A stretch of DNA of 33,540 nt. Source: Acidobacteriota bacterium (lineage in GTDB: Bacteria > Acidobacteriota > Terriglobia > Acidiferrales > 2-02-FULL-67-57). The notes beneath the pieces were generated by a model. It did no database searches. It saw nothing but the letters and a program-made list of their open reading frames with translations, and was not told the origin of the DNA. A program made the translations under genes and the position numbers. How positions within the stretch are numbered: the stretch's first letter is position 1; every line of letters starts with the position of its first letter. The stretch spans positions 1 through 33,540 of the forward strand of contig JACZYA010000016.1 of assembly GCA_022571295.1 (NCBI GenBank), in the 5' to 3' direction. Of the stretch, positions 15,913-33,540 are shown piece after piece.

Positions 15913-15942
15913 CTTGACAACGCCGCGCGCCCAACCCTATAG
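15913..15942 (+). promoter_or_regulatory. candidate sigma-70 promoter of the nuo cluster
   Basis: TTGACA (15913-15918), 18-nt spacer, TATAGT (15937-15942), about 68 nt before the nuoA start. Confidence 0.6.
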
Positions 15943-16009
15943 TCAATTTCTCAGCATTCCCGGCGGGTCGGGTCATTATAACATCGAGTCAGACCTTCCC
16001 GGCAACGAG

Positions 16010-16399
16010 ATGAATCAGAACTATCTATCCAGTTACGTTCCTATCCTCATCTACTTTCTATTGGCTATGGGTGTGGCCGGCGCCATCATGCTGCTGTCCT
16101 GGCTGATCGGCCCGCGCAAACCCACGCCCACCAAGCTGTCGCCCTACGAATGCGGCATGTTGCCCACGGGTGACGCGCGCGAGCCTTTTTCGGTCAAGTT
16201 CTATCTGGTCGCGATCCTCTTTATCCTTTTCGACGTGGAAGCTATGTTTCTGATTGTCTGGGCTGTCGTCCTCCGGCAGCTTGGCATGTACGGGTTCATC
16301 ATCATGTCGATCTTCCTCTTCCTGCTCATGGTCGGGTTCGTGTACGAATGGAAAAAGGGCGTGTTGGATTGGGCTCCACGCCAAAGCCGGAGAGGATAA
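16010..16399 (+). CDS. nuoA: NADH-quinone oxidoreductase subunit A
   Basis: 129 aa, [46 protein letters not shown]. Confidence 0.96.
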
Positions 16400-16401
16400 C
16401 G

Positions 16402-16881
16402 GTGGGCATCCCGCAGGAATTGGCGACCCGGTCGCCGGTGCAACGGCTCACCGCAGCTCTTCCCGACGCTATCGTGGAAGCCGTCGAGTTCCGCAGCGAG
16501 CTGACCGTGCGGGTTGAGCCGGCTCACAGCCGCGCCGCGCTCGAATTCCTCAAGAACGACCCCGAGTTGCGCTTCAATGTTTTGAGCGACCTCACGGCGG
16601 TCGACCGCTACCCGCTCGAGCCGCGTTTTGAGATTGTTTATCAATTGCTCGCCTTGAAGCGCGGCGAGCGCTTGCGGTTGAAAGCCCGCCTGCCCGGCGA
16701 CGACCCCCGCATCGATTCCATCACCTTCCTCTGGCCCGCTGCCAATATGCTGGAACGCGAAGTGTTTGACCTCTTCGGCGTCCACTTCGCCGGCCACCCC
16801 AACCTGCGCCGTTTGATGATGCCGGAAGACTGGGAAGGACATCCCCTGCGCAAAGACTACCCGGTGGAGGGCTACCGCTAG
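16402..16881 (+). CDS. nuoC: NADH-quinone oxidoreductase subunit C
   Basis: GTG start 2 nt after nuoA; EREVFDLFGVHFAGHPNLRRLMMPEDWEGHPLRKDYPVEGYR. Confidence 0.95.
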   Translation: MGIPQELATRSPVQRLTAALPDAIVEAVEFRSELTVRVEPAHSRAALEFLKNDPELRFNVLSDLTAVDRYPLEPRFEIVYQLLALKRGERLRLKARLPGDDPRIDSITFLWPAANMLEREVFDLFGVHFAGHPNLRRLMMPEDWEGHPLRKDYPVEGYR

Positions 16882-18077
16882 TGGTTGAGCCCATCGCTCC
16901 CCCGCCCGTTTCCGCTGAGACCATGACCCTCAACATGGGGCCCCAGCACCCCTCTACCCACGGCGTCCTGCGGCTCATCCTGGAACTTGACGGCGAGACT
17001 ATCCTGCGCGCCACGCCCGACATCGGCTTCCTGCACACCGGCATCGAGAAAAACGCCGAAAAGCTCTACTACTCCCAGGTCATCCCCTTGACCGACCGCA
17101 TCGACTACTTGGCGCCGCTCTCCAATAACCTGGTCTTTTGCCTCGCGGTGGAAAAACTCCTCAAACTGCAAATCCCGCCCCGCGCCCAGTGGATTCGGGT
17201 TCTGCTCACCGAGCTGAGCCGCATCAACAACCACTTGGTCTGGCTGGGCACCACCGCGCTCGAAATCGGCGCCATGTCGGTGTTTCTCTACTGCTTCCGT
17301 GAGCGAGAGGAAGTTCTCAAAATCTTCGAGCTCTGCTCCGGGCAGCGCATGATGTGCAGCTACTTCCGCATCGGCGGGCTGGCGGTGGAGCCGCCGCTGG
17401 ATTTCTACTCTCGCGTGGACGGCTTCCTGAAAATGATGCCCGCGCGCATCGATGACTACGAAGACCTTCTCACGGAAAACAGAATCTGGCTCGGCCGCAC
17501 CAAAGGTGTTGGCGTTCTTTCCCTGGACGATGCCCTGGCGTACAGCATAACCGGCCCCAACTTGCGGGCCTCGGGCCTGGCCTACGATTTGCGGAAGGAG
17601 TGTCCCTACTCAGGCTACGAAAATTTTACTTTCGACGTACCCTCGCGCTCGGAGGGAGACTGCTACGCCCGCTACTCAGTTCGCATCGAGGAACTGCGGC
17701 AAAGTCTGCGCATTGTCCGCCAGGCGCTTGACGGACTCCCAGAGGGCCCCATCCAGGCTGACGCCCCCGGCGTTGTGCTGCCGGACCGTGACAAAATGAA
17801 GGCCGAGATGGAAGCTCTGATCTACCACTTCAAGCTGGTGGTGGATGGATTTGCCCCGCCGGCGGGAGAAGTCTATTTTCCCATTGAGTCGCCCAAAGGC
17901 GAGTTGGGTTGCTACCTGGTCAGCGACGGCGGCCCCCGCCCCTGGCGCATGCGCTGGCGCGGTCCCTCGTTGTTCAACGTGCAACTGCTCGCCAAGCTCT
18001 TGCCCGGCCACCTGCTGGCCGACGCCGTCGCCATTACCGCCAGCGTGGATTTTGTCCTGGGCGAGGTGGACCGCTGA
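16881..18077 (+). CDS. nuoD: NADH-quinone oxidoreductase subunit D
   Basis: GTG start overlapping the nuoC stop; MTLNMGPQHPSTHGVLRLILELDGE, GFLHTGIEK, C-terminal DFVLGEVDR. Confidence 0.97.
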   Translation: MVEPIAPPPVSAETMTLNMGPQHPSTHGVLRLILELDGETILRATPDIGFLHTGIEKNAEKLYYSQVIPLTDRIDYLAPLSNNLVFCLAVEKLLKLQIPPRAQWIRVLLTELSRINNHLVWLGTTALEIGAMSVFLYCFREREEVLKIFELCSGQRMMCSYFRIGGLAVEPPLDFYSRVDGFLKMMPARIDDYEDLLTENRIWLGRTKGVGVLSLDDALAYSITGPNLRASGLAYDLRKECPYSGYENFTFDVPSRSEGDCYARYSVRIEELRQSLRIVRQALDGLPEGPIQADAPGVVLPDRDKMKAEMEALIYHFKLVVDGFAPPAGEVYFPIESPKGELGCYLVSDGGPRPWRMRWRGPSLFNVQLLAKLLPGHLLADAVAITASVDFVLGEVDR

Positions 18078-19909
18078 TGGCCCTGCAACTCTCGCCCGAA
18101 CTCCGCAAGAAGTTTGAGAGCCTCAAGCAGCGGTACCCGCGGCAGCGCTCGGCCTTGATTCCCATGCTGCTCTTCGCTCAGGACGAGCTCGGTTGCGTGC
18201 CCGACCAGCTGGTGGACTATTTGGCCGACGATCTCGATCTTCGCCGCATGGAAGTGGAGGAAGTCATCTCTTACTACTCCATGTTGCGGCGCCGGCCCGC
18301 CGGTCGCTACCACCTGCAAGTCTGCACCAACGTTTCTTGCCTGCTGCGCGGCGGCAAGCAAATTCTCGACCAGGTGCAGCGCCACTGCGGGGTTCCGCCC
18401 AAAACCGCAACGGATGACGGACTGTTTTCCTACGAAGAGGTCGAGTGCATCGGCGCCTGTACCGGCGCGCCGGCGATGCAGGTGAACTACGACTACTATG
18501 AGAACCTGACTCCGCAGTCCTTGAACGAACTGCTTGACCAGCTGCAACTAGGAAACACTCCCTCTCCGACCCGCCAAACCACCGACTTCCTCAAGCAACA
18601 AAAACCGCATTCAGCCGAAGTGCGCGTTGTCGGCCGCCGCTTCGGCCTGCGCAACTCGGCCGCGCTCACTACTTATCTGAAGCATGATGGCTACCAGGGG
18701 TTGGAAAAAGCGCTGAAGGAAATGACACCGGAGCAAATCCTGGAAGAGGTCAAGCGCTCCAACCTGCGCGGCCGGGGCGGCGCCGGCTTTCCGGCCGGCA
18801 TGAAGTGGGGCTTCGTTCCCAAGGACACCGACAAGCCCAAGTACATCATCGCCAACGCCGATGAAAGCGAGCCCGGCACCTGCAAAGACCGCGCCCTGAT
18901 GGAGCATGACCCGCACCAGTTGATCGAGGGTTTAGTGATTGCCGCCCGCGTCGTCAACGCTCACCAGGGTTACATCTACATCCGGGGCGAGTACCGCTAC
19001 GTGATGGAAATCCTCGACCGTGCCATTGCCGAAGCCTATGAGCGCAACTACCTGGGTAAGAACATCCTCGGTAGCGGTTTTGATTTCGACCTCTGCACCC
19101 ACACTGGCGCGGGCGCCTACGAATGCGGTGAGGAAAGCGCCCTGATGGAATCGCTGGAGGGCAAGCGCGGCTACCCCCGCATCCGCCCGCCCTTCCCGGC
19201 CGTGGTCGGCCTCTACGGCTGCCCGACCGTAATCAACAACGTCGAAACCTTGAGCTCGGTGCCGGCCATCATTCTGAAAGGCGGGGAGTGGTACGCAGAC
19301 CTGGGCAGCGAGCGCAACGGCGGCACGCGCCTGTTCTGTATCTCCGGCCACGTCAACCGTCCCGGCTTGTACGAGCTGCCGATGGGATTCCCCTTGCGGC
19401 GAATGATTGAAGAAGTGGCCGGCGGCATGCGTGACGGCAAGAAGTGCAAGGCGGTCATCCCCGGCGGCTCTTCCGTGCCTGTGCTGACTGCCGACCAACT
19501 CGACACCCCGATGGACTTCGACTCCGTCGCCAAGGCCGGCTCCATGCTCGGCTCCGGTGCCGTAATCGTGATGGACGAAGACACCTGCATGGTGGAAGTG
19601 GCCCAGCGAATCGCGCAGTTCTACGCCCATGAGTCCTGCGGCTGGTGCATTCCCTGCCGCGAAGGAACGGCCTGGCTGCGCAAAGTGCTTGACCGCTTCC
19701 ACTCCGGCGGCGGCCGCACCCAGGACATCCCGCTGCTGAAAGAGCTGGCCCAGAATATGCTGGGCAAGACCTTCTGCCCGTTGGGAGATGCGGCGGCCAT
19801 GCCCATCATCAGCTTCGTGGACAAGTTCCGCCACGAGTTTGAGGAGCACCTGCGCACGGGGGAATGCCCGTTCTCCCGCGACGCCGCCGCGGTCGCCACA
19901 CCACTATGA
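18077..19909 (+). CDS. fused NADH-quinone oxidoreductase subunits E and F (NuoEF)
   Basis: Single 610-aa frame. NuoE part has CTNVSC...ECIGAC [2Fe-2S] ligands; NuoF part has NLRGRGGAGFPAGMKWGF, NADESEPGTCKDR, ESCGWCIPCREGT and FCPLGD. Confidence 0.95.
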   Translation: MALQLSPELRKKFESLKQRYPRQRSALIPMLLFAQDELGCVPDQLVDYLADDLDLRRMEVEEVISYYSMLRRRPAGRYHLQVCTNVSCLLRGGKQILDQVQRHCGVPPKTATDDGLFSYEEVECIGACTGAPAMQVNYDYYENLTPQSLNELLDQLQLGNTPSPTRQTTDFLKQQKPHSAEVRVVGRRFGLRNSAALTTYLKHDGYQGLEKALKEMTPEQILEEVKRSNLRGRGGAGFPAGMKWGFVPKDTDKPKYIIANADESEPGTCKDRALMEHDPHQLIEGLVIAARVVNAHQGYIYIRGEYRYVMEILDRAIAEAYERNYLGKNILGSGFDFDLCTHTGAGAYECGEESALMESLEGKRGYPRIRPPFPAVVGLYGCPTVINNVETLSSVPAIILKGGEWYADLGSERNGGTRLFCISGHVNRPGLYELPMGFPLRRMIEEVAGGMRDGKKCKAVIPGGSSVPVLTADQLDTPMDFDSVAKAGSMLGSGAVIVMDEDTCMVEVAQRIAQFYAHESCGWCIPCREGTAWLRKVLDRFHSGGGRTQDIPLLKELAQNMLGKTFCPLGDAAAMPIISFVDKFRHEFEEHLRTGECPFSRDAAAVATPL

Positions 19910-22131
19910 GTGAAACCCAAAATTCGGTTCAGCTCACGGTTGACGGACGCGCCATCGACGTCCCTTCCGGCACCCTGCTGATCGAAGCTTGCAAGTCCAC
20001 CGGCCACGAAGTTCCGTCGTTTTGCTACTATCCGGGGCTTTCGTTGCAGGCCGCCTGTCGGATGTGCTTGGTGGAAATCGAAAAGACGCCCAAGCTCCAA
20101 ACCGCCTGCACGGTCGTGGTCCAGCCCGGAATGATCGTTCGCACCGAGACGCCGCAGGTGGCCGAGGCCCGCAAGAACATGCTGGAATTCCTCCTCACCA
20201 ACCACCCGCTCGACTGCCCGGTGTGCGACAAAGGTGGGGAATGCGAGCTCCAGGACATGGTGTTTCGCTACGGCGCCGCCGAAAGCCGCTTTGTCGAAGA
20301 AAAAGAGCACCAGCCCGAGCAGCAGTTTTCCCCCATCGTCTATTTTGACTATCCCCGCTGCATCCTCTGCTTCCGCTGCGTGCGCGTGTGCGACGAAGCC
20401 ATGGACGTCAAGGCGCTCGGCATCGGGCAGCGCGGCGTCCGCACCCTCATCATCCCCAACCGCCCCGACGGGACGCTCGAATGCGAAGAGTGCGGCATGT
20501 GCATTGACATCTGCCCGGTGGGGGCGCTCACCAGCCACCAGTATCGGTACAAGACGCGCCCGTGGGAAATGAACTACGTCGGCACGCCCTGCGCGCACTG
20601 CGGCGATGGCTGCAAGACCACCTTGAACGTCCGCAATAACCAAATCCTGCGCGGCAACAACCGTGACATGACGGGAATCAACGGCGAATTCCTCTGCATC
20701 AAGGGCCGCTACGCCGGCGACTTCACGCACCATCCCGAGCGTCTCCGGCAACCTTTGCTGCGCCGCAACGGCCAGTTGCAACCCGCCAGTTGGGAGGAAG
20801 CGCTGGGGTTCGTGGCCCAGCACCTGAAGGAAATTACCAAGCGTTCCGGCCCCCGAACGGTAGGATTCCTCGGCTCCAACCGTACCACCAACGAGGAAAA
20901 CTATTTGTTGGCTCGCTTCGCGCGCACCGTGGTGGGAACCAATAATCTCGACCACCACCGCACGGCTGACTTCGCCGCCCTGGCCGGCGCCCTCCATGGT
21001 GAGCCGGTTCGCTACGCTGCCTCCGGCGACCTCAGTCGGGCCTCCGCCATCCTGCTGGTAGGGAACGACCCCACCCATAACCACCCGCTGCTCGCGTGGA
21101 ACATCCGTTCCGCCGTCCGCCAGCACGGCGCGCACCTCTACATCATCAATTCCAGACGGATCAAACTGCGCCGGCAGGCCCGTCAACTGGTGGAGATTCC
21201 CTCGGGCAAGGAAGCTGCCGCCATTGAGGCTCTGCATGGCGCCCCCACTGACATCTCGGCTGCCACCCAACAGGAGCTTGCGACGCTGCGGGCGGCGCTG
21301 GAGAAGGAATCTGACGTCATCGTCTTGTTCGGCGCGGAAGTTTTCGGCTCGGCGGTCAGCCGCCTGGTTGAATTCAGCCGCCAACTCCCCGGCGTGACCC
21401 GCTACATCGCTTTGGGCGACTACGCCAACTCTCGTGGTGCTGCCGATATGGGCCTTTTGCCTGACCGGCTGCCCGGCTATGCTTCGCTCAAAGATGCGCT
21501 GACGCGGAAGAAGTGGGAGCAGGTCTGGGGTGCAGCCCTGCCTTCAGAGCCAGGCTTGCATGCAAAACAGATGCTCGGCGGCAACCAATTGCGTGCCCTC
21601 TACGTAATCGGGTCGAACCCGGTTAGGACTTTCGGGTTGCCGCAAACGCGCGAGGCGCTGGGCGAGCTCGAACTGCTGGTGGTGCACGAACTGTTCTTGA
21701 CGGAAACCGCGCGGCTGGCCGACGTGGTGCTGCCCGCCGCTTCCGCCTATGAAAAAGATGGCACCTTCACAAACACCTGCGGCGAGGTGCAGCGCCTGAA
21801 GCGGGCGCTGGATCCGGGCGCCGTCCGTACCGATTTTGAGATCATCCGCTTGTTGTCTTACGCCTGGGGTACGCCCCTCCCGTTGCGGTCATCGGAAGCC
21901 GCCTTTGAAGAGATTCGCCAGCACGTCCGCGGCTACAGGGTCTCCCAGGCCCAACTCGTAGCCGGGCAGGCGGTTCGTTGTGCTCCCACCAGTGGGCATG
22001 CCGCGGCGGACACCCCGCCGGGCCTGGTGTTCTCTGCGGACGACTCGTTGTTCACCTCCGGAACCCTGGGCCGATACAGCGCGGCGTTGAATTCAGTTTC
22101 GGAGCGCGATCTGCCGCGGTCACGCCTATGA
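19906..22131 (+). CDS. nuoG: NADH-quinone oxidoreductase subunit G
   Basis: [2Fe-2S] CYYPGLSLQAACRMC, His-Cys3 HPLDCPVCDKGGEC, two CxxCxxC motifs, extra CAHCGDGC cluster motif, molybdopterin-type domain. Confidence 0.95.
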   Translation: MSETQNSVQLTVDGRAIDVPSGTLLIEACKSTGHEVPSFCYYPGLSLQAACRMCLVEIEKTPKLQTACTVVVQPGMIVRTETPQVAEARKNMLEFLLTNHPLDCPVCDKGGECELQDMVFRYGAAESRFVEEKEHQPEQQFSPIVYFDYPRCILCFRCVRVCDEAMDVKALGIGQRGVRTLIIPNRPDGTLECEECGMCIDICPVGALTSHQYRYKTRPWEMNYVGTPCAHCGDGCKTTLNVRNNQILRGNNRDMTGINGEFLCIKGRYAGDFTHHPERLRQPLLRRNGQLQPASWEEALGFVAQHLKEITKRSGPRTVGFLGSNRTTNEENYLLARFARTVVGTNNLDHHRTADFAALAGALHGEPVRYAASGDLSRASAILLVGNDPTHNHPLLAWNIRSAVRQHGAHLYIINSRRIKLRRQARQLVEIPSGKEAAAIEALHGAPTDISAATQQELATLRAALEKESDVIVLFGAEVFGSAVSRLVEFSRQLPGVTRYIALGDYANSRGAADMGLLPDRLPGYASLKDALTRKKWEQVWGAALPSEPGLHAKQMLGGNQLRALYVIGSNPVRTFGLPQTREALGELELLVVHELFLTETARLADVVLPAASAYEKDGTFTNTCGEVQRLKRALDPGAVRTDFEIIRLLSYAWGTPLPLRSSEAAFEEIRQHVRGYRVSQAQLVAGQAVRCAPTSGHAAADTPPGLVFSADDSLFTSGTLGRYSAALNSVSERDLPRSRL

Positions 22132-23345
22132 GCGAATGGATTAGTCGCCATCCCGAGTTGCTGGTCGCAGGCCTGAAGGCCGGGGTCTTGATCTTTGTCC
22201 TGTTGACCGCAGTTGCTTATATGGTCTGGTTTGAACGCAAGTTGATTGCACACATTCAGTCCCGCTGGGGCCCCTACCGCGTGGGCCCGCACGGGTTGTT
22301 GCAACCGCTGGCCGATGGGCTCAAGTTTTTGTTCAAAGAAGACATCATCCTGACCAACGTCACCAGCCGCTTCGTTTACCTGTTCGCGCCTTTTCTCTCG
22401 CTCGCATTGGCGCTGCTGGCGGTGGCCGTGATTCCATTCGGGCCGGAAGAATTTGAGCTGTTGGGCACTCGCACCGGCCTCTACGTTGCCGACATCAACG
22501 TTGGGTTGCTCTTCGTGTTGGCTGTCACCTCACTGGGCGTGTATGGGGTTGTCCTGGCCGGTTGGTCTTCCAATAGCAAGTATCCTCTCTTGGGCGGCTT
22601 GCGCAGTGCCGCCCAAATGATCAGCTACGAGCTGGCTTTGACTTTTGCCGTAGTCGGTGTGCTGTTGTTGGCCGGGACTCTCTCGCTGCGCGAAATCGTC
22701 GACGGGCAAAGCGGCACCTGGGCTGGCTTCCTCCCCCGCTGGCACGTCTTTCCCCAGTTTGTGGCTTTTGTTTGTTTTTTTGTGGCCGGCGTCGCCGAGA
22801 CCAACCGGACGCCCTTCGATCTCCCCGAAGCCGAGTCCGAGTTGGTGGCGGGCTTCCACACCGAGTACAGCAGCTTGAAATTCGCCATGTTTTTCATGGC
22901 CGAGTACGCCCACATCATTACCACTTCTCTTTTGGTTACGATTCTCTTCTTCGGCGGCTGGCTCTCTCCCTTCCCCGATACCGCCGCCTGGAATTTCACG
23001 CGCTTCCTGCCTAGCGTGCTGACGGCGGTGCTGGCCCTGCTGTTCTTCCGCGACGCTTTTCGATTGACGAACCAGTACCATCGTGTCCTGACTTTTCTTA
23101 TTTGTATGGGCCTCGCGGGCCTGGCGTTCCTGTTGCTGCACCCGACAGCGCTCGTTCTGGCCCAGGGCCCGTTTTGGTTACTGGCCAAGACGGGGATGTT
23201 TCTGTTTGTGTTCGTCTGGACACGGGCAACGCTGCCGCGGTTCCGCTATGACCAGCTCATGGCCTTCGGCTGGAAGCTGCTGGTTCCGCTGGCGGTACTC
23301 AATGTGTTCGTCACCAGTTTTGTGGTGGCATGGCGGGCGGATTAA
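22128..23345 (+). CDS. nuoH: NADH-quinone oxidoreductase subunit H
   Basis: AYMVWFERKLIAHIQSRWGPYRVGPHGLLQPLADGLKFLFKED; ETNRTPFDLPEAESELVAGFHTEYS. Confidence 0.97.
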   Translation: MSEWISRHPELLVAGLKAGVLIFVLLTAVAYMVWFERKLIAHIQSRWGPYRVGPHGLLQPLADGLKFLFKEDIILTNVTSRFVYLFAPFLSLALALLAVAVIPFGPEEFELLGTRTGLYVADINVGLLFVLAVTSLGVYGVVLAGWSSNSKYPLLGGLRSAAQMISYELALTFAVVGVLLLAGTLSLREIVDGQSGTWAGFLPRWHVFPQFVAFVCFFVAGVAETNRTPFDLPEAESELVAGFHTEYSSLKFAMFFMAEYAHIITTSLLVTILFFGGWLSPFPDTAAWNFTRFLPSVLTAVLALLFFRDAFRLTNQYHRVLTFLICMGLAGLAFLLLHPTALVLAQGPFWLLAKTGMFLFVFVWTRATLPRFRYDQLMAFGWKLLVPLAVLNVFVTSFVVAWRAD

Positions 23346-23845
23346 TGAGCGCTGAGCACTGGCTGTTCTTTTTCTTCGCCGGCGTGGCCGTCCTGGGGGC
23401 GCTGAACCTGATTCTCCAGCGCCATCCTATCCACAGCGCGTTGTCGCTGATCTTGGTCATGGCTTCGCTGGCGGTGCTCTACCTGCTCTTAGGAGCCGAG
23501 TTTATTGCCGCCATCCAAATCATCGTCTATGCCGGCGCCATCATGGTGTTATTCGTGTTTGTCATTATGGTGCTGAATGCGGGCGAGGAAGAACGCACCA
23601 GCCTGAGTCGCGTGGCGAAATTCGTGGGCCTACCGCTGGCGGCGGTCTTCCTGGTCGAGGTGTGCTACGTTCTCTACCGAGCGTGGCCGAGCGAGCAGAT
23701 GGTAGTGCCCGAGCGTTTCCTGGGCCGAACCGAAGCCATCGGCAAGGCGCTCTACGGGGAATTCCTGCTGCCGTTTGAGTTGACCGCGATTCTCATCCTG
23801 ATTGCTCTGGTGGGAGCCGTTGTTCTCGCCCAGAAGGAGCCTTAA
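23345..23845 (+). CDS. nuoJ: NADH-quinone oxidoreductase subunit J
   Basis: Start overlaps the nuoH stop (TAATG); [28 protein letters not shown]. Confidence 0.95.
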
Positions 23846-23847
23846 CC

Positions 23848-24153
23848 ATGCACGTCCCTCTTTCCTACTATCTCATCCTGAGCGCAATCCTTTTCGGCTT
23901 GGGCGTGCTGGGGTTTCTGCTCAAACGCAACATCATTGCCATCTTCATGTCGCTTGAGCTCATGCTAAACGCTGTAAACCTTTCTTTCGTTGCGTTCTCC
24001 TACGCCTGGCAACAGATCAGCGGCCAGATTTTTGTTTTCTTCGTGATTGTGGTTGCAGCCGCCGAAGCGGCCGTCGGCTTGGCGATCATCATTATGATTT
24101 TCCGCAACCGCGCTTCGCTCAACATCGAGCGGATAAACTTGATGAAGCTCTAA
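23848..24153 (+). CDS. nuoK: NADH-quinone oxidoreductase subunit K
   Basis: 101 aa; [44 protein letters not shown]. Confidence 0.97.
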
Positions 24154-24160
24154 CACTGCC

Positions 24161-26107
24161 ATGCTTGATTTCCTCTGGTTGATTCCGGCCCTTCCCCTGC
24201 TCAGCGCTTTTGTCCTGGGCGTTGTGGGCTGGCGCCTGTCGAAGCGAGCGATCTGCACTCTGGGCGTCGGATCGGTAGGGCTTTCGTTCGCGGCCTCTCT
24301 GGGAATGGCGTGGGCTTTCTTTCAACTCGCGCCCGAGCAAATCCCGATTCGTTCTTCCTATTTCACCTGGTTGGCTGCCGGCAACTTCCAGGTAGAAGTT
24401 GGGTTCTACCTGGACCAGTTGTCGCTGCTGATGGTGCTGGTGGTCACGGGAGTGGGTTGGCTGATCCACATCTACTCGATTGGCTACATGGCCCACGAAG
24501 GCGGCACCTATCGCTTCTTCGCCTACATGAACCTCTTCACCTTCTTCATGCTTCTCTTGGTGCTGGCGGGCGACTACGCCTTGCTCTTTGTGGGATGGGA
24601 AGGCGTTGGGCTTTGCTCCTACCTGCTCATCGGCTTCTACTTCCTCCGCGACTCAGCCAGCGATGCAGGCAAGAAAGCTTTCATCGTCAACCGGCTGGGC
24701 GATTTCGGTTTCCTGCTGGCGTTGTTCCTTCTCTTCCGGACCTTCGGCAGTCTGGATTTCGATATTGTCTTCGGCCGTGCTGCTGTGCTGCCAGCGGAGT
24801 CTTTCTCCCCCGGCCAGGCCGGCGTGTTGACGGCTATTGCTCTCCTATTGTTGGTGGGCGCGATCGGCAAGTCGGCGCAACTGCCTCTCTACGTCTGGTT
24901 GCCGGACGCGATGGAAGGCCCCACGCCTGTCAGTGCGCTCATCCACGCTGCCACCATGGTCACCGCCGGCATCTACATGATCGCCCGCTCTCACATCCTC
25001 TTCGCCCACGCGCCCCTCGCGCTGGCGGCGGTGGCGACCATCGGTTGCCTGACCGCTTTCTATGCCGCCACCATCGGTTTGGTGCAGACTGACATCAAGA
25101 AAGTTCTGGCCTACTCCACCGTCAGCCAGCTCGGTTACATGTTCTTGGGGTTGGGCGTGGGTGCTTTTACGGCCGGTATTTTCCATCTGATGACCCACGC
25201 GTTTTTCAAAGCCCTGCTGTTTCTGGCGGCGGGCAGTGTGATCCACGCCATGAACGGGCAGCAAGACATAGGCAAGATGGGCGCGCTCCGCCGAAAAATT
25301 CCCTATACCTATTGGACATTCCTCATCGCCACCCTGGCTATTGTCGGCGTGCCGGGTTTCTCGGGTTTTTTCAGCAAGGACGAAATTCTGTGGCGAACGT
25401 TCGAGACCGGCAACCAAGTCCTGTGGCTGCTTGCCCTGGTCGCAGCAGCGTTGACCTCGTTCTACATGTTCCGCCTGGTGTTCCTTGTCTTCCACGGACA
25501 AGCTCGCTATACGCCGGAAACCGCGCGCCAAATCCGCGAATCGCCGCGCGTGATGACCTGGCCGCTGGTTGCGCTGGCAGTGCTTGCCCTCGCGGGCGGC
25601 TGGGTGGGAATCCCTGCGGCTCTGGGCGGTGCGAATCGCCTGGCACGCTTCCTCGAACCCGTTTTTGCCTCCTCTCATGCGCTCGTGCAAGCGCAGGGGC
25701 AGACCATTCTTCATTCGCATGAGTGGGAGTTGGCTTTGATGGGCTTGACGGCGTTGCTGGCCGCTACAGGCATGGGCGTCGCCTATGCTTTCTATATTCT
25801 CAATCCTGAGTTGGCCAACAATCTCGCGCAAACCCTCCGCCGGCCGTATCAAGTCTTGGTGCGCAAGTACTACGTGGATGAGCTGTATTTTGCCGCGGTG
25901 GTGCGTCCCCTGCATTGGCTTTCGGAGCGCGTCTTTTGGCAAGCCGTGGATGTGCGGATTGTGGATGGAGCGGTCAACGCCACCGCGTCGCGGGCACGGG
26001 ACCTGGGCCGATGGGCGCGACGCTTGCAATCCGGCAATGCGCGCAGCTATGCCGCCTGGGTGGTTGTGGGCGCGGTCGTCATTCTCTCGTATTTCGTTTT
26101 TTCCTAG
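24161..26107 (+). CDS. nuoL: NADH-quinone oxidoreductase subunit L
   Basis: 648 aa; GWEGVGLCSYLLIGFYF, PLYVWLPDAMEGPTPVSALIHAATMVTAGIYMIAR. Confidence 0.97.
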   Translation: MLDFLWLIPALPLLSAFVLGVVGWRLSKRAICTLGVGSVGLSFAASLGMAWAFFQLAPEQIPIRSSYFTWLAAGNFQVEVGFYLDQLSLLMVLVVTGVGWLIHIYSIGYMAHEGGTYRFFAYMNLFTFFMLLLVLAGDYALLFVGWEGVGLCSYLLIGFYFLRDSASDAGKKAFIVNRLGDFGFLLALFLLFRTFGSLDFDIVFGRAAVLPAESFSPGQAGVLTAIALLLLVGAIGKSAQLPLYVWLPDAMEGPTPVSALIHAATMVTAGIYMIARSHILFAHAPLALAAVATIGCLTAFYAATIGLVQTDIKKVLAYSTVSQLGYMFLGLGVGAFTAGIFHLMTHAFFKALLFLAAGSVIHAMNGQQDIGKMGALRRKIPYTYWTFLIATLAIVGVPGFSGFFSKDEILWRTFETGNQVLWLLALVAAALTSFYMFRLVFLVFHGQARYTPETARQIRESPRVMTWPLVALAVLALAGGWVGIPAALGGANRLARFLEPVFASSHALVQAQGQTILHSHEWELALMGLTALLAATGMGVAYAFYILNPELANNLAQTLRRPYQVLVRKYYVDELYFAAVVRPLHWLSERVFWQAVDVRIVDGAVNATASRARDLGRWARRLQSGNARSYAAWVVVGAVVILSYFVFS

Positions 26108-26116
26108 ACCGGAACG

Positions 26117-27640
26117 ATGCAGCACTATTGGCTAACACTCATCACCTTCTTTCCCCTGCTGGGCGCGTTGGTGTTGCTGCTTTTCCCACGGGAAGCGGCG
26201 GAGAAGATCCGCCGGGCCGCGCTGGTGGTGGCACTGGTAGAGTTCGGACTGTCGCTGCCGTTGTTCTTCTGGTTTGACGCCAACCGTTCCGGCATGCAGT
26301 TCTTGGAGCGCTACGTCTGGATCAGCAACCCGCCCATCCACTATCAGGTGGGCGTGGACGGGCTGAGTCTCTTCCTCATCCTCCTCACCACTTTCCTCAC
26401 GCCCCTGGCAGTGCTGGCTTCCTGGCCCATCACACACCGGGTCAAAGAGTTCTTCGTCCTGCTGCTGGTGCTGGAGGCAGGTATGTTGGGCGTGTTCGTG
26501 GCCCTCGATCTATTTTTGTTTTACGTGTTCTGGGAAGTGATGTTGATCCCGATGTACTTGTTGATCGGCATCTGGGGCCACCAACGGCGCTTCTACGCCG
26601 CCATCAAGTTCATTCTTTACACTCTGGCCGGCTCGCTGTTGATGCTGGTGGCCATTATCTGGCTCTACATCCAGACAGGAACTTTTGACCTTCTCGCCCT
26701 CTATAGCCTTCGGTATGAGATGCCCGGCCTGCTCTCGCTGGGCGCGGAACGCTGGCTGTTCCTGGCTTTCTTTCTCGCCTTCGCCATCAAGATTCCGCTC
26801 TTCCCATTTCACACTTGGTTGCCCGACGCTCACGTGGAAGCGCCCACCGCCGGCTCAGTGCTGCTGGCGGGTGTCCTGCTGAAGATGGGAGCGTACGGCT
26901 TGCTGCGCTTTTGCCTGCCGCTCTTCCCCAACGCCACACGCGAGTTCGCTCCCGCCATCTCAGCGCTGGCGATTATCGGCATCCTCTATGGCGCACTGGT
27001 GGCGCTGGTGCAGCCGGATATGAAAAAGCTGATCGCTTTTTCCTCCATCGCTCACATGGGATTCATCGTGCTGGGAATCATGGCCATGAACGTGATCTCG
27101 GTGCAAGGCGCCATCTACCAGATGCTGAGCCACGGCATCTCCACCGCCATGCTCTTCCTGCTGGCGGGCATGCTCTACGACCGGCGCCACACCCACTTGA
27201 TTAGCGAATTCGGCGGCTTGGCCACACCTATGCCGGTGCTGTCGAGCTTTTTATTGTTGGCCTGCCTGTCTTCATTGGGGTTGCCGTTGCTGAACGGCTT
27301 TGTGGGGGAATTCCTGATCCTGCTGGGCGTATTCGAGGCCAATGTTGTCCACGCTGCCTTGGCCACCTTCGGAGTGGTGCTGGCGGCTGTGTACCTGCTC
27401 TGGATGTACCAGCGCGTGGCATTCGGTCAGGTAAGCGATGTGAACAAGACTCTTCCGGATGTCAGTCGCCGTGAATTGGCTATTCTGATTCCGCTGGCGG
27501 TTTTGGTGGTGTGGATGGGCGTGTTCTCGCCCATGTTCACGCGCCGCATGGAGAGCACCACCAAGAGAATTCTCTTTCAAGCGCAATCGCCCCATTACCA
27601 ACTGGCTGAATCCGTCGATACTCTTGAGGCGAAGGAATGA
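26117..27640 (+). CDS. nuoM: NADH-quinone oxidoreductase subunit M (copy 1)
   Basis: 507 aa; FYVFWEVMLIPMYLLIGIWG, PFHTWLPDAHVEAPTAGSVLLAGVLLKMGAYGLLRF. Confidence 0.96.
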   Translation: MQHYWLTLITFFPLLGALVLLLFPREAAEKIRRAALVVALVEFGLSLPLFFWFDANRSGMQFLERYVWISNPPIHYQVGVDGLSLFLILLTTFLTPLAVLASWPITHRVKEFFVLLLVLEAGMLGVFVALDLFLFYVFWEVMLIPMYLLIGIWGHQRRFYAAIKFILYTLAGSLLMLVAIIWLYIQTGTFDLLALYSLRYEMPGLLSLGAERWLFLAFFLAFAIKIPLFPFHTWLPDAHVEAPTAGSVLLAGVLLKMGAYGLLRFCLPLFPNATREFAPAISALAIIGILYGALVALVQPDMKKLIAFSSIAHMGFIVLGIMAMNVISVQGAIYQMLSHGISTAMLFLLAGMLYDRRHTHLISEFGGLATPMPVLSSFLLLACLSSLGLPLLNGFVGEFLILLGVFEANVVHAALATFGVVLAAVYLLWMYQRVAFGQVSDVNKTLPDVSRRELAILIPLAVLVVWMGVFSPMFTRRMESTTKRILFQAQSPHYQLAESVDTLEAKE

Positions 27641-29079
27641 GCGTCCCGGTCACCGATTTGTTGCGCATTCTGCCCGAGTTGGTGCTCGCGGTCTTCGGCA
27701 CGCTGATCGTGCTGGTGGAACCCTTTTTGCGCCGAACGCAAAAGTCTTTGACCGGGTACATCGCGCTGATCGGAGCCCTACTCGCTCTTCTGTCCACTTT
27801 GGCGCCGGCAATGTACCCCGGCCCGGCTTTCAACGGCCTGGTGCTTGTGGACGGGTTCAGCATCTTTTTTCACTTCCTGCTGCTGATGATTACCACGCTC
27901 ACCATTGTGGCGTCTTTCCGCTACCTGGAGCGCGAAGGCCTGCCCCAGGGCGAGTTCTATGCCTTGCTCCTCTTTGCCACTATCGGGATGGGTTTGATGG
28001 CGTCAGGTAATGAACTGGTGCTGGTGTTCCTCGGGCTGGAAACTGTTTCCATCGCTACCTATGTCTTAGTAGGTTTTCGCCGCACGGAAGTGCGCTCCAA
28101 TGAAGCGGCCATGAAGTATTTTCTGCTGGGCTCGTTCGCCACCGCCTTCATGCTCTATGGGATCGCGCTGCTATTCGGCGCCACCGGAACCACGTTCCTC
28201 CCCGACATCGCCCGTCAGCTGGCGGAAGGCGGCGGCATGAGAACTCTGGCGCTAATGGGCATGGGGCTGCTGTTCGTGGGTTTGGGATTCAAGCTCGCCC
28301 TGGTGCCCTTCCAAGCATGGGTACCGGATGTTTATGAAGGCGCGCCCACGCCGGTGACCGCCTTTCTCTCCGCCGGCCCCAAGGCCGCCGTCCTGGCAGC
28401 TTTCTTGCGAATTTTCTTCACCGCGCTGGAACCGCTCAGCGGCTCCTGGGTCTGGGTCATCTGGGCCACCGCCATCCTGACCATGTGCATCGGCAACCTG
28501 GGCGCGCTGATGCAAGACAACATCAAGCGCATGCTGGCCTATTCCTCCATTGCCCACGCCGGCTACATTCTGATCGCCTTCGCCGCCCATTCCGAACTGG
28601 GCATAGCCGCCGTGCTCTTCTACCTGGTCGCCTACGCGTTGATGAAGCTGGGAGCGTTTTCCATTGTCTCGCACGTCTCCGCCGGCGAGGCCCACCAATC
28701 CATTGACGACTACGCCGGCCTGCACGCCCGGCACCCGCTGCTGGCCGCTTGCTTGACAGTTTTTCTACTTTCGCTGATCGGAATTCCCCTCACCGGGGGC
28801 TTCTTTGGCAAGCTCTATATCTTCACCGCCGGGATTGATGCCAACTTGATGGGTCTGGTGATTGTCGGAGTCGTGAACAGCGCACTCTCGGCGGCCTATT
28901 ATCTGCGCGTGGTGAAAGTAATGTACATGAGCGAGCCGCAAGGAAATCTGGCGGTAGTACCGGTGCCGGCCTCCCTGGTTTTTGTGCTCACCCTTACCGT
29001 CCTGGGAACCATCGGCCTGGGTGTCTTCCCTTCCCCCATCTTGCAATTTGCTCAACAGTCGGTTCTGCCCCTGCCCTGA
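27637..29079 (+). CDS. nuoN: NADH-quinone oxidoreductase subunit N (copy 1)
   Basis: 480 aa; ATGA overlap with nuoM; PFQAWVPDVYEGAPTPVTAFLSAGPKAA, QDNIKRMLAYSSIAHAGY. Confidence 0.96.
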   Translation: MSVPVTDLLRILPELVLAVFGTLIVLVEPFLRRTQKSLTGYIALIGALLALLSTLAPAMYPGPAFNGLVLVDGFSIFFHFLLLMITTLTIVASFRYLEREGLPQGEFYALLLFATIGMGLMASGNELVLVFLGLETVSIATYVLVGFRRTEVRSNEAAMKYFLLGSFATAFMLYGIALLFGATGTTFLPDIARQLAEGGGMRTLALMGMGLLFVGLGFKLALVPFQAWVPDVYEGAPTPVTAFLSAGPKAAVLAAFLRIFFTALEPLSGSWVWVIWATAILTMCIGNLGALMQDNIKRMLAYSSIAHAGYILIAFAAHSELGIAAVLFYLVAYALMKLGAFSIVSHVSAGEAHQSIDDYAGLHARHPLLAACLTVFLLSLIGIPLTGGFFGKLYIFTAGIDANLMGLVIVGVVNSALSAAYYLRVVKVMYMSEPQGNLAVVPVPASLVFVLTLTVLGTIGLGVFPSPILQFAQQSVLPLP

Positions 29080-29193: not shown

Positions 29194-29520
29194 CTAGTAG
29201 GTGACTTTCAAAAAGACGATGGCAAAGGTGTAGAGCGCCAGCGATTCAATCAGCACCAGGGCCAGAATCAGCACAAATCGAATCGCGGGAGCGGCGCCCG
29301 GATTCCGTGCCATGCCTTCGCAAGCAGCCGAGGTAGCCTTGGCCTGCGCGATGGCACAACCAGCCGCGGCAATCGCCATGGCAAAGCCCGAAGTGATGGC
29401 GATCCACATGGCCACTTGAGCCGGCGGCTTTCCGTCGGCGCCCTCAGCCTGCGCGGCTGCGGGCAAAGCAAAAGTAAACAGCAGCAGAGTGAGTCCTAAC
29501 AGCACAACTGTTTTCTTCAC
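29194..29520 (-). CDS. atpE: ATP synthase F0 subunit c, with N-terminal signal-like segment
   Basis: GTG start at 29520 after AAAGGAGAACCACC; ARNPGA loop and ion-binding helix VLIESLALYTFAI; leader VKKTVVLLGLTLLLFTFALPAAAQA. Confidence 0.9.
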   Translation of the reverse strand: MKKTVVLLGLTLLLFTFALPAAAQAEGADGKPPAQVAMWIAITSGFAMAIAAAGCAIAQAKATSAACEGMARNPGAAPAIRFVLILALVLIESLALYTFAIVFLKVTY

Positions 29521-29617
29521 GGTGGTTCTCCTTTCGGTATGAAATAGTCCGCAGGAGGTGGTTCCCCGGCCACCCTCGTACGGCCGAGGCTCACGCTGAA
29601 CGGACATCAGTCCAGTA

Positions 29618-30433
29618 TTAATGCTCTTCCGCTACCGCCCCACCCACGTACACGATCGGGAGCAGCGTAAAGACGAATGCCTGCAAGAAAGCTACGAACA
29701 CATGCAACAGAACAAATGCCAGCGGGATAATCACCGGCGCAATTGCGCCCATGCCACCCAGAACCATGTTCACGCCCGCCAGCCACGTCATCATGGATAC
29801 ACCCAAGCCCAGAAAGGTCAGGTAGAGCAGCTCGCTCACCACCATGTTCACCCACAGTCGAACCGTGAGTGAAAGTAGCCGCGCCGCATGGCTGACGATT
29901 TCAATCGGCAGCATCAGCGGGGCCATGGGCAGGATGGGTCCCAGGAACTGCTTGCCGTACTTCAGCACGCCATGGGCCTGGATGCCGGCAAAGTTGTAGT
30001 AAGCAAAAACAACCAGCGCGCAACCGAGCGGCACCGTATGGTGCGCGGTGGGGGAAACAAACCCGGGAACCAAACTGATGACGTTGCAGAATAAAACAAA
30101 CAGCCCCACGCTGCCGATCGCGGCCAGGTGTTTACGTCCGCCATGCCCGACGATCTCATCCAGTAGATCGTAAATGCCCACCTGAAAGGGGTTTGAAAGC
30201 AGCGTCTCAAAACAGATTTGCAAACCGCCGGGGTTCTCGGCTGACAAGCGCTTGCGAAACCAGAGAAAGAAGAGGACGCACAAAAAGACGATGAACAGCT
30301 CGGTGGCGATGTGGTCGGGAATGGGCCGGGTGGGGTCGTGCGGATGGAAGCCCAGGCCTTCCAGCAGCGGCAGCGCCAACCAGCCGAAGAGGCGGTTGAC
30401 TATGTCGCCGATCAACGTGGGATGATGTTCCAT
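29618..30433 (-). CDS. atpB: ATP synthase F0 subunit a
   Basis: 271 aa; conserved Arg helix LLSLTVRLWVNMVV; C-terminal VAFLQAFVFTLLPIVYVGGAV. Confidence 0.94.
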   Translation of the reverse strand: MEHHPTLIGDIVNRLFGWLALPLLEGLGFHPHDPTRPIPDHIATELFIVFLCVLFFLWFRKRLSAENPGGLQICFETLLSNPFQVGIYDLLDEIVGHGGRKHLAAIGSVGLFVLFCNVISLVPGFVSPTAHHTVPLGCALVVFAYYNFAGIQAHGVLKYGKQFLGPILPMAPLMLPIEIVSHAARLLSLTVRLWVNMVVSELLYLTFLGLGVSMMTWLAGVNMVLGGMGAIAPVIIPLAFVLLHVFVAFLQAFVFTLLPIVYVGGAVAEEH

Positions 30434-30436
30434 TTG

Positions 30437-30853
30437 TTAGTGTCTCGCCTCTTGTTTCCGCACAGCCAGCACCACTTGAAATATAGCTTCCAGGAAAACT
30501 GCGGCGACCAGAAGCAACAAGCCGCCTACCACGCCCGCCAGGGACAGCAGCGAACGCGAAAAGATAACATACAGCAGCAGGGCAAGCAAGACGACCGGCA
30601 CAAACAGCTTCAGGTAGGTTCGCGTAGTGGGGCGAACCTGCTGGGCGCGCACCAGCGAGTCAACCAAGGCTACGATCCAGCGGTAGTTCAGGTACGCGAG
30701 TCCGCCCCCGAAAGCGAACGCCAGTCCCACCCCTGCGCTCCAATTCCAGGCCGCCACCACCGTGCCCACAGGCGTCAGTCCCAAGATAAACCAACCCAGC
30801 CGGCGCTCGGCGCGAGCCAGCAACTCGCGTTCGGCCTGCGGAAGCTCGCTCAC
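30437..30853 (-). CDS. ATP synthase subunit I-like membrane protein
   Basis: 138 aa, four hydrophobic segments, between atpZ-like and atpB genes. Confidence 0.7.
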   Translation of the reverse strand: MSELPQAERELLARAERRLGWFILGLTPVGTVVAAWNWSAGVGLAFAFGGGLAYLNYRWIVALVDSLVRAQQVRPTTRTYLKLFVPVVLLALLLYVIFSRSLLSLAGVVGGLLLLVAAVFLEAIFQVVLAVRKQEARH

Positions 30854-31074
30854 CGCCGGTTCAGCCTCTTCAGTTCGCGGAATAGCTCCAGCAAGGCGGC
30901 GACGAATCCAAAGCCCAGGAACACAAGGCTCAACAGGGGGCTGGTTCCGAACTTGCCGTCCAGCCAGGCTCCGATGAAGTACCCCACCGCCGCAGCAACC
31001 GGAAAAGTGAAAGCGATGCTGAGGACAAAGCCCAGTTGCCGCCAGGGGCTGGCGTCGTTGGGCTGGGGCGACAT
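30850..31074 (-). CDS. AtpZ/AtpI-family ATP synthase accessory protein
   Basis: 74 aa; two TM segments, PVAAAVGYFIGAWLDGKFGTSPLLSLVFLGFGFVAALLELFRELKR. Confidence 0.8.
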   Translation of the reverse strand: MSPQPNDASPWRQLGFVLSIAFTFPVAAAVGYFIGAWLDGKFGTSPLLSLVFLGFGFVAALLELFRELKRLNRR

Positions 31075-31084
31075 GGCGTGTGCC

Positions 31085-32551
31085 TTAGCGGAAAGGAATC
31101 ATGGAGAACTGGGCGAAGCGAATGAGAGGCTCAGGATAAATACCAGACGCCAGCGTCAAGACCACCGTAATCGCCAGAGTGGCCACCAGCCCCGGCGCCA
31201 ACTCCATCTTGCCGGGCTCGCGCGGTTTGTCCATGAACATCGCCACCACGATGCGGAAATAGTAGTAGAGAGCGACGGCCACGTAGAGCGCAGCGATGAT
31301 GGCCAGGTAGTAATGCCCGGTCTGGATGAGCGCGAGGAAGATGAAATACTTGGCCACAAAGCCGCCGGTGGGAGGGATGCCGGTGAGAGAGAGCAGAAAA
31401 ATAATCATCAGGGTGGCGGGCACGGGGTTCTTGAAGAACAGGCCGCGCATGTCCTCGATGCGGTCGCCGATCAGATTCGAGCGCCGCATGCCGGTGACGA
31501 CGGCAAAGGCTCCCAGGGTCATCATGGCGTACACAAAAATATAGACGGCAATGCCGGTGCGGCCGGTCTCGTTGCCCGCCACCAAGCCCAGCAGCATGTA
31601 GCCGACGTGCCCGATGGAGGAGTAGGCCAGCAGGCGCTTGATGTTGTCCTGGTTGAGCGCGGCCAGATTGCCAATGACCATGGTGGCCACGGCCACCACG
31701 GCGAGTATGTCCTCCCAGTTGGTCCGCACCGGGCCCAGCGGAATCAGGAACAAGCGCAGCAGCAAAGCGAAGGAGGCGGCCTTGGAGGCGACCGATATGT
31801 AGGCGGTGATGGGCGTGGGCGCGCCTTCATAGACGTCTGGCGCCCACTGGTGGAACGGAACCGCCGCCACCTTGAAAAAGAGGGCGGCGGCAATCGTGAT
31901 GGTCGCCAGAAAAACGATGGGATCGTCCGGGCCCCGTTGCCGAACTGCCTCCGCTATCCGATAGATGTTGGTGGACCCGCTGATGCCATAAAGCAACGAG
32001 AACCCATACGCCAGGATGCCGGAGGAAAACACGCCCAGGAGGAAGTATTTGATGGCGGCTTCGTTCGAGCGGCGGTCGCGGCGGAGAAAGCCGGTGAGCA
32101 GGTAGAAGGAGATGGCCATCAGCTCCAAGCCAATGAAGAGAGTGATGAGGTCGATGCCGCCGGCCAGCAGCATCATGCCGACAGTGGCGAAGAGGATGAG
32201 CGAGTAGTACTCGCCCTCGTTTTCCTTTTCGATCTCCAGGTAGCGGATGGACATCAGGATGACCAAGGCGGTGGCGAGAAGAAAAATAAAACTGAAATAA
32301 ATGAAAAAGGAGTCCACCACAATCAGGCCGCCGCCGTCGGTTCCGCGAAAGGCCAGCATGGTGCGGTCATGCAGGCGCCAGATCTGAAACCCGCTGAACG
32401 CCACGCCCAGAAGGGCGGTGATGGCGCTGACAAACTTGTAGCGCGCGTCGAGCAGGAAGTCCAACAGCAGGATGCCGCAGGCGAAGATGGTCAACTCAAG
32501 GTGCGGGACAATCGCAACGAAGTCTTCCGGCTGGAAAAAATCAGTCCACAT
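31085..32551 (-). CDS. nuoN: NADH-quinone oxidoreductase subunit N (copy 2)
   Basis: 488 aa; PFHQWAPDVYEGAPTPITAYISVASKAASF, NQDNIKRLLAYSSIGHVGYMLLG. Confidence 0.96.
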   Translation of the reverse strand: MWTDFFQPEDFVAIVPHLELTIFACGILLLDFLLDARYKFVSAITALLGVAFSGFQIWRLHDRTMLAFRGTDGGGLIVVDSFFIYFSFIFLLATALVILMSIRYLEIEKENEGEYYSLILFATVGMMLLAGGIDLITLFIGLELMAISFYLLTGFLRRDRRSNEAAIKYFLLGVFSSGILAYGFSLLYGISGSTNIYRIAEAVRQRGPDDPIVFLATITIAAALFFKVAAVPFHQWAPDVYEGAPTPITAYISVASKAASFALLLRLFLIPLGPVRTNWEDILAVVAVATMVIGNLAALNQDNIKRLLAYSSIGHVGYMLLGLVAGNETGRTGIAVYIFVYAMMTLGAFAVVTGMRRSNLIGDRIEDMRGLFFKNPVPATLMIIFLLSLTGIPPTGGFVAKYFIFLALIQTGHYYLAIIAALYVAVALYYYFRIVVAMFMDKPREPGKMELAPGLVATLAITVVLTLASGIYPEPLIRFAQFSMIPFR

Positions 32552-33540
32552 CAGCGTTCAGCCGGCTCCGAGGGGGTTTCTTCGCTGGGGATCTCGGGCA
32601 CAGCGGCCGTCACGGGCGGCGCCTCCTCCTCAACCTGGAGGCGCTCGACGATGCGGGCTATGGGCTTCTCCAACACCTCGAAGTACGGCTTGGGATAAAT
32701 TCCGATCCAGAAGCACCAGATGACCAGCGGCACCAGCGTGACCAGCTCGCGCAGGTTTAGATCAGGGAGCGACTTGTTGGCGGGCTTGGTCACCTCGCCG
32801 AACATCACCCGCTGGTAGAGCCAGAGCAAATAGGCAGCGCCCAGGACAATTCCCGCCACCGCAAAGCCCGCCCACCACATGTTGACCTGCCAAGCTCCGA
32901 GCAGGATGGTAAATTCGCCGATGAACCCGTTGAGCAACGGCATCCCCAGCGAGGCCAGGCTGATAATCAAAAAGATAGCGGCGAAGACCGGCATGGGCGT
33001 GGACAGCCCGCCGAACTCGCTGATCTCGCGCGTGTGCCGGCGCTCGTAAAGGTATCCCACAATCAAGAAGAGCGCGCCGGTCGAGATGCCGTGGTTCACT
33101 TGCTGGATCAAACTGCCGGTCAACCCCAAGTGGTTGAGCGTGAAGATACCCAGCGTGCAGAAACCCAGGTGCGAGACCGATGAGTAGGCGATCAGCCGCT
33201 TCATGTCCGTCTGCATCATGCAGACCAGGGCGCCGTAGATGATGGCAATGATGGACAACGTAACCACCACCGGGACGGCCGCGCGCGCGGCTTCGGGAAA
33301 CATCGGCAACGAGAAGCGCATCAAGCCATAGGTGCCCATCTTCAGCAAAACGCCGGCCAGGATGACCGAGCCGGCGGTGGGCGCATCCACGTGGGCGTCA
33401 GGCAGCCAAGTGTGGAAAGGAACCATCGGGACTTTGATAGCGAAGCCGATGAAGAAAGCCCAGAAAATCCAGAATTGCCACTCGTAGGGCAACACCTTGC
33501 CCAGTTCCAAAAACGCCGGGATGCTGAAGGTGTAGATGCC
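32551..33540 (-). CDS. nuoM: NADH-quinone oxidoreductase subunit M (copy 2), N-terminus outside the window
   Basis: Frame remains open to the window edge (GIYTFSIPAFLELGKVLPYEWQ...); PFHTWLPDAHVDAPTAGSVILAGVLLKMGTYGLMRF. Confidence 0.95.
   Translation of the reverse strand, partial: GIYTFSIPAFLELGKVLPYEWQFWIFWAFFIGFAIKVPMVPFHTWLPDAHVDAPTAGSVILAGVLLKMGTYGLMRFSLPMFPEAARAAVPVVVTLSIIAIIYGALVCMMQTDMKRLIAYSSVSHLGFCTLGIFTLNHLGLTGSLIQQVNHGISTGALFLIVGYLYERRHTREISEFGGLSTPMPVFAAIFLIISLASLGMPLLNGFIGEFTILLGAWQVNMWWAGFAVAGIVLGAAYLLWLYQRVMFGEVTKPANKSLPDLNLRELVTLVPLVIWCFWIGIYPKPYFEVLEKPIARIVERLQVEEEAPPVTAAVPEIPSEETPSEPAER

Follow-up and report, generated by a model that had tools for sequence, protein, structure and literature searches.

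A stretch of 33,540 nucleotides, referred to here as the window, contains a gene cluster for respiratory complex I (16010–29079) without nuoB and nuoI, which raises the question of whether and how a complete enzyme is made from it. The window is the entire contig C215 of a 3.24-Mb genome (98.6% complete, 2.9% contamination, 287 contigs) that, judging from its fragmentation and its relatives, is a metagenome-assembled genome (MAG). Open frames and HMM matches gave the order nuoA-C-D-EF(fused)-G-H-J-K-L-M-N for this cluster, hereafter cluster 1:

15914–15943, forward strand: sigma-70-like promoter, TTGACA-N18-TATAGT, 5' of nuoA; the pattern TTGAC-N16..20-TATNNT, picked after viewing the sequences, occurs in 12 of 12 genomes
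16010–16399, forward strand: nuoA (PF00507, 131 bits; NCBIfam NuoA models)
16400–16401, forward strand: A/C junction of 2 nt, the position of nuoB in outgroups (A-B-C in outgroup loci L025–L030)
16402–16881, forward strand: nuoC (TIGR01961, 142 bits, over cut-off)
16881–18077, forward strand: nuoD (TIGR01962, 550 bits, over cut-off)
18077–19909, forward strand: nuoE-nuoF fusion of 610 aa (TIGR01958 and TIGR01959 over their cut-offs in a single frame)
19906–22131, forward strand: nuoG (TIGR01973, 479 bits, over cut-off)
22128–23345, forward strand: nuoH (PF00146, 399 bits)
23345–23345, forward strand: H/J overlap of 1 nt, the position of nuoI in outgroups (order H-I-J)
23345–23845, forward strand: nuoJ (PF00499)
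23848–24153, forward strand: nuoK (NF004320, 119 bits, over cut-off)
24161–26107, forward strand: nuoL (TIGR01974, 752 bits)
26117–27640, forward strand: nuoM (TIGR01972, 626 bits)
27637–29079, forward strand: nuoN (TIGR01770, 450 bits)

Of the 14 subunit functions that make up an ordinary proton-pumping NADH:quinone oxidoreductase, 12 were encoded in the window. By HMM matches, all of the membrane arm (A, H, J, K, L, M, N) was present. The NADH module (E, F, G) was complete by its FMN/NADH and Fe-S domains (TIGR01958, TIGR01959 and TIGR01973 over cut-off; Pfam). The E part of the fusion was of the [2Fe-2S] type with Cx4C and Cx3C, and the F part carried GRGGAGFPAG and CxxCxxC plus one more cysteine. 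A single match spanned nuoE and nuoF in those relatives from the order whose loci were read; the two genes were separate in outgroups and seem split in G104. All six reading frames of the window were searched with NuoB and NuoI from the same genome, and no frame or remnant of either gene was found; the sole weak NuoI match, at 20320–20541, was rejected as a nuoI remnant and assigned to the ferredoxin domain of nuoG. An earlier note on this DNA had given the same gene order, the 2-nt A/C gap, the nuoH/nuoJ overlap and the absence of nuoB and nuoI frames from 16010–29079, all of which were confirmed. Its conclusion that no working complex I can be encoded by this cluster alone likewise holds, B and I being absent from cluster 1.

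One source of the missing subunits proposed in that note was a second, convergent nuo cluster, the end of which lies in the same window:

29194–29505, reverse strand: atpE, F0 subunit c, between the two nuo clusters (PF00137)
29618–30433, reverse strand: atpB, F0 subunit a (TIGR01131, 108 bits, over cut-off)
30437–30853, reverse strand: atpI (PF03899, 26.5 bits)
30850–31074, reverse strand: atpZ-like gene, ATPase gene 1 (PF09527)
31085–32551, reverse strand: nuoN2 of cluster 2 (TIGR01770, 451 bits)
32551–33540, reverse strand: 3' part of nuoM2 (TIGR01972 from model position 190)

The 5' part of nuoM2 (its first 199 codons) formed the end of another contig, C11, and the two parts meet at about residue 190–199 of the family model. 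The last 9 bases of C11 are the reverse complement of the window end (common 9-bp end GGCATCTAC), an overlap that is weak evidence taken alone. Tail-to-tail clusters with their nuoC genes 23–27 kb apart were found in 22 relatives, and the gene order was identical in the loci of G003, G004, G020 and G025 where the sequence was read. Because this layout recurs in the relatives, the join between C11 and C215 is very likely real. Followed onto C11, cluster 2 was A-C-D-H-J-K-L-M-N, and none of B, I, E, F and G was found in it. The F0 genes atpZ-I-B-E (29194–31074, reverse strand) follow nuoN2 between the convergent clusters; atpB and atpE occupied an equivalent position in several relatives, and F1 ATPase genes were absent from the window.

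Since cluster 2 itself lacks B and I, it cannot supply the missing subunits. That it provides NuoB and NuoI to both complexes was suggested by the presence of a real second nuo cluster, tail-to-tail with the first in the 22 relatives, but the same order without B and I was read on C11 and in the four relatives named above, and a separate cognate B and I exists elsewhere for each of the two clusters (see below). For the source genome this supply is refuted by the C11 join together with the relatives, and we give it practically no credence.

The other source that had been proposed, a location elsewhere in the genome, agreed with the data. The MAG contained two nuoB and three nuoI copies, all outside the clusters and as lone genes. 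The nuoB copies, on contigs C52 (B1) and C278 (B2), both scored above the curated cut-off. The nuoI copies were of two types: those on C129 (I1) and C63 scored above the curated cut-off, and the divergent nuoI2 on C166 just below it. No complex I gene was seen adjoining any of these orphans in the genome and none of them was close to either cluster, their absolute positions not being fixed in a MAG of 287 contigs. The Q module is thus complete in the genome, with C and D in the window and B and I on other contigs.

The gene nuoB1 had a zinc alcohol dehydrogenase gene and a GcvT-like gene as neighbours, and nuoB2 a Rieske ferredoxin gene and an EVE-domain gene; nuoI1 was located downstream of parB, and nuoI2 adjoined a DUF218 gene. 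These neighbour genes recurred across genera, indicating that the loci are old and settled. The Rieske-type ferredoxin and EVE-domain genes (C278, locus L014, 10763–11543) were found 3' of nuoB2 in the six relatives examined, and the ferredoxin is a possible candidate partner. The second nuoI1 copy lies, with about 77 bp of its upstream sequence, in a 562-bp stretch of C63 (locus L017, 3250–3810) that is 93% identical to C129; the flanks are unrelated. Either the copy arose by recent duplication or C63, which was lower in GC in the sampled stretch, is a contaminant. The C63 copy was set aside as the main I1, because its flanks had no counterpart in the nuoI locus of G001, a member of the same family, whereas the flanks on C129 had one.

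The orphans remain intact genes, maintained by purifying selection. The NuoB ligand motifs LACC, GAC and GCPPRP (N2 ligands) were intact in both NuoB proteins, and two CxxCxxCxxxCP motifs (eight cysteines) were present in all NuoI. The best matches among solved structures were chain 6 of Thermus complex I for NuoB1 and chain 9 for NuoI1 (2fug), with the cysteine ligands in place in both alignments. The dN/dS values against G001 were 0.09 for B1, 0.04 for B2, 0.07 for I1 and 0.12 for I2, compared with 0.12 for both D1 and D2.

Taken alone, a cluster 1 without B and I might be read as decaying, or as encoding an enzyme that runs without the N2 and N6 clusters and uses other electron partners, the latter also suggested in the earlier note. 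Against this reading stand the cognate, intact B and I genes in the genome, which are kept or lost with their own clusters, the complete NADH-module domains, the intact frames and the dN/dS of D1. There is no sign of an unusual enzyme, the suggestion of other electron-transfer partners was not supported, and we regard decay or such partners as highly improbable.

The gene order was compared among relatives. By NuoD (80–84% identity), the named relatives were Acidobacteria/Acidobacteriia MAGs, and three named Acidobacteria contigs (L021–L023) showed the same A-C-D-EF-G-H order. Outgroups had A-B-C-D and, where the contig extended far enough, H-I-J. A count over 55 additional genomes from the order (genus g9 was omitted, its cluster being different and CD-fused) gave closely matching copy numbers of 89 nuoC, 86 nuoB and 88 nuoI, and 0 of the 89 nuoC had a nuoB within 3 kb or a nuoI within 14 kb. 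The only in-place nuoI, in cluster 2 of G002 (contig L083, A2-C2-D2-H2-I2), is cut by the contig end and fell below the count threshold; it was seen on reading the locus. For 9 of the 12 nuoC in f4, a family belonging to the same class, neither gene was nearby, and B and I for cluster 1 were also scattered. A phylum-wide sample (n = 129 nuoC) comprised 76 nuoC with both genes, 26 with B only, 7 with I only and 20 with neither, 'absent' counts in such neighbourhood tallies being inflated by contig edges to an extent that was not gauged. The order-level zero is not due to contig edges, and neither are the genomes with long contigs, G003 (10 contigs) and G143 (3 contigs), which had the same gene order.

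The fragmented state of the MAG and its 2.9% contamination might suggest that nuoB and nuoI are missing from the clusters through misassembly or binning. The same order was nevertheless present in the named contigs L021–L023 and on the long contigs of G003 and G143. With this order in dozens of independently assembled relatives, misassembly is excluded, and an artefact of assembly or binning has a negligible probability.

Other arrangements were observed in the phylum. In two other families, nuoB-nuoI-nuoB stood together (G123:C23:82142-83616 and G144:C40:38984-41690), in G123 apart from any nuoC. Genus g9 (G009, G021, G027, G034, G039) had a fused-CD complex I cluster with nuoB in place where contigs allow. 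The NuoD of G009 grouped with a Syntrophaceae sequence, and the native complex I of this genus has apparently been replaced.

Which orphan belongs to which cluster was apparent from their joint presence and loss. Genomes with cluster 1 only (G006, G014, G032, G037, G040) contained only the C52 type of B and only the C129 type of I. With the presence of cluster 2 scored as NuoD2 at ≥75% identity in 56 genomes, D2 and B2 were both present in 37, D2 only in 0, B2 only in 1 and neither in 18 (Fisher p = 9e-14), and the corresponding counts for D2 and I2 were 34, 3, 1 and 18 (p = 1e-10); the genomes are related, so that these p-values overstate independence and are descriptive only. The exceptions were MAGs less than 85% complete and G002, in which I2 is still in cluster 2. 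Since cluster 2 was absent from several genera (g6, and part of g4 and of g8), three unlinked loci (cluster 2, B2 and I2) were probably lost together more than once. The orphan copies are therefore cognate by joint presence and loss: B1 and I1 go with cluster 1, B2 and I2 with cluster 2.

The position of the orphans alone would fit a loss of the native nuoB and nuoI and their replacement by horizontally acquired copies inserted elsewhere. The phylogenies argue against such a replacement. NuoB and NuoD, the two subunits covered by trees, gave the same groupings, although the NuoB tree is short and many of its inner forks are weak. B1 and D1 of the order and f4 fell near G136, G084, G145 and G117, in which nuoB is still beside nuoC and nuoI is not. 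D2 of the order grouped with the cluster found in G145 and G117 (94/76), and B2 was in an unresolved group with the orphan B of these two genomes. The neighbours of NuoB1 were thus those of NuoD1, and those of NuoB2 the neighbours of NuoD2, including relatives with nuoB in the cluster, and in G002 a gene of the I2 type still occupies its position in cluster 2. No direct evidence for horizontal replacement was found, and we consider it very unlikely. Because the NuoB and NuoD trees agree, the native nuoB was most likely relocated rather than replaced, presumably by vertical excision.

The split layout is ancient, with stable orphan loci. The departure of nuoI apparently preceded that of nuoB in cluster 1. 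For cluster 2 the reverse order is suggested, with nuoI leaving after nuoB, since G002 still has A2-C2-D2-H2-I2; few nodes bear on either order. G002, with nuoI2 after nuoH2, is an intermediate. The view in the earlier note that the genes underwent a lineage-specific relocation and not decay is borne out by the intact orphans, their purifying selection and the ancestry that the orphan nuoB share with the nuoD of the clusters.

Promoter-like elements were found 5' of three of the genes. The three patterns were all picked after viewing the sequences: that upstream of nuoA1 (see above) compared with a shuffle mean of 0.02, TANA[CG]T upstream of nuoI1 occurred in 13 of 13 sequences (shuffle mean 2.5), and TGNNANAAT upstream of nuoB1 in 10 of 12 (shuffle mean 0.26). 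In the source genome, the nuoB1 element extends as far as the initial ATG of the reading frame, and because of this overlap translation of nuoB1 probably begins at the next Met. A search for a common regulatory 9-mer 5' of nuoA1, nuoB1 and nuoI1 gave nothing better than shuffles, leaving separate elements only. These elements suggest that each orphan gene is under its own promoter. The loss of exactly the N2 and N6 subunits from both paralogous operons, seemingly in opposite order, might even have been selected rather than drifted. In that case nuoB and nuoI, each under a promoter of its own, would be limiting assembly factors whose independent regulation determines the amount of each complex I that is finished; we consider this unlikely.

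On this evidence, we propose that NuoB (cluster N2) and NuoI (N6a, N6b), the missing iron-sulfur subunits of the Q module, are supplied in trans. The complex of cluster 1 would comprise the products of the window genes, B1 (C52) and I1 (C129), from three loci. A second complex without an NADH module (A-C-D-H-J-K-L-M-N) would be completed by B2 (C278) and I2 (C166). It is highly probable that the genome encodes two enzymes, a conventional NADH:quinone complex I and a sister complex of 11 subunits, each assembled in trans from three loci. As predicted from the gene content, the orphan NuoB and NuoI proteins would join their respective complexes, the first of which would oxidise NADH. The second would take its electrons from ferredoxin or another non-NADH donor, or may share the E-F-G module of cluster 1.

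Cluster-based pipelines will score such Acidobacteriota as lacking a working complex I, whereas they encode two. Unlinked genes that are lost with their own cluster also constitute a natural experiment, from which the complex served by each orphan subunit can be read. From the sequence of events in the two clusters one can ask whether B and I leave the operon with unusual ease or were moved for a reason.

The set of all 14 subunit functions in the genome resembles canonical bacterial complex I (NDH-1/Nuo; Thermus thermophilus Nqo1–14), from which it differs in that nuoB and nuoI are single genes outside the cluster and nuoE and nuoF are fused. An 11-subunit complex I-like enzyme without NADH module is described for Desulfitobacterium hafniense (PMC11238625). 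Cluster 2 resembles that enzyme in having no E, F or G; it comprises A, C, D, H and J–N, to which B2 and I2 are added from elsewhere in the genome. The 11-subunit set (A, B, C, D, H, I, J–N) was thus present, with the NADH module unlinked and with B2 and I2 assigned by co-occurrence. Unlike in the D. hafniense case, B2 and I2 are here unlinked to the rest. Split nuo sets are already known in general: NUO-2 of Nitrospina gracilis has unlinked nuoB2 and nuoF2 (PMC3578206), and most clades in a survey mix split and single-cluster nuo sets (PMC12361115). A description of a class-wide, doubly parallel nuoB/nuoI split in Acidobacteriota was not found in the literature searched, the scope of which excluded most subscription journals. 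The sets described here share with these known cases that complex I subunits are encoded outside the main cluster. They differ in that one and the same pair of subunits has left both paralogous clusters with the cognate pairing kept, and in that the displacement is order-wide and, for cluster 1, extends to family f4 of the same class.
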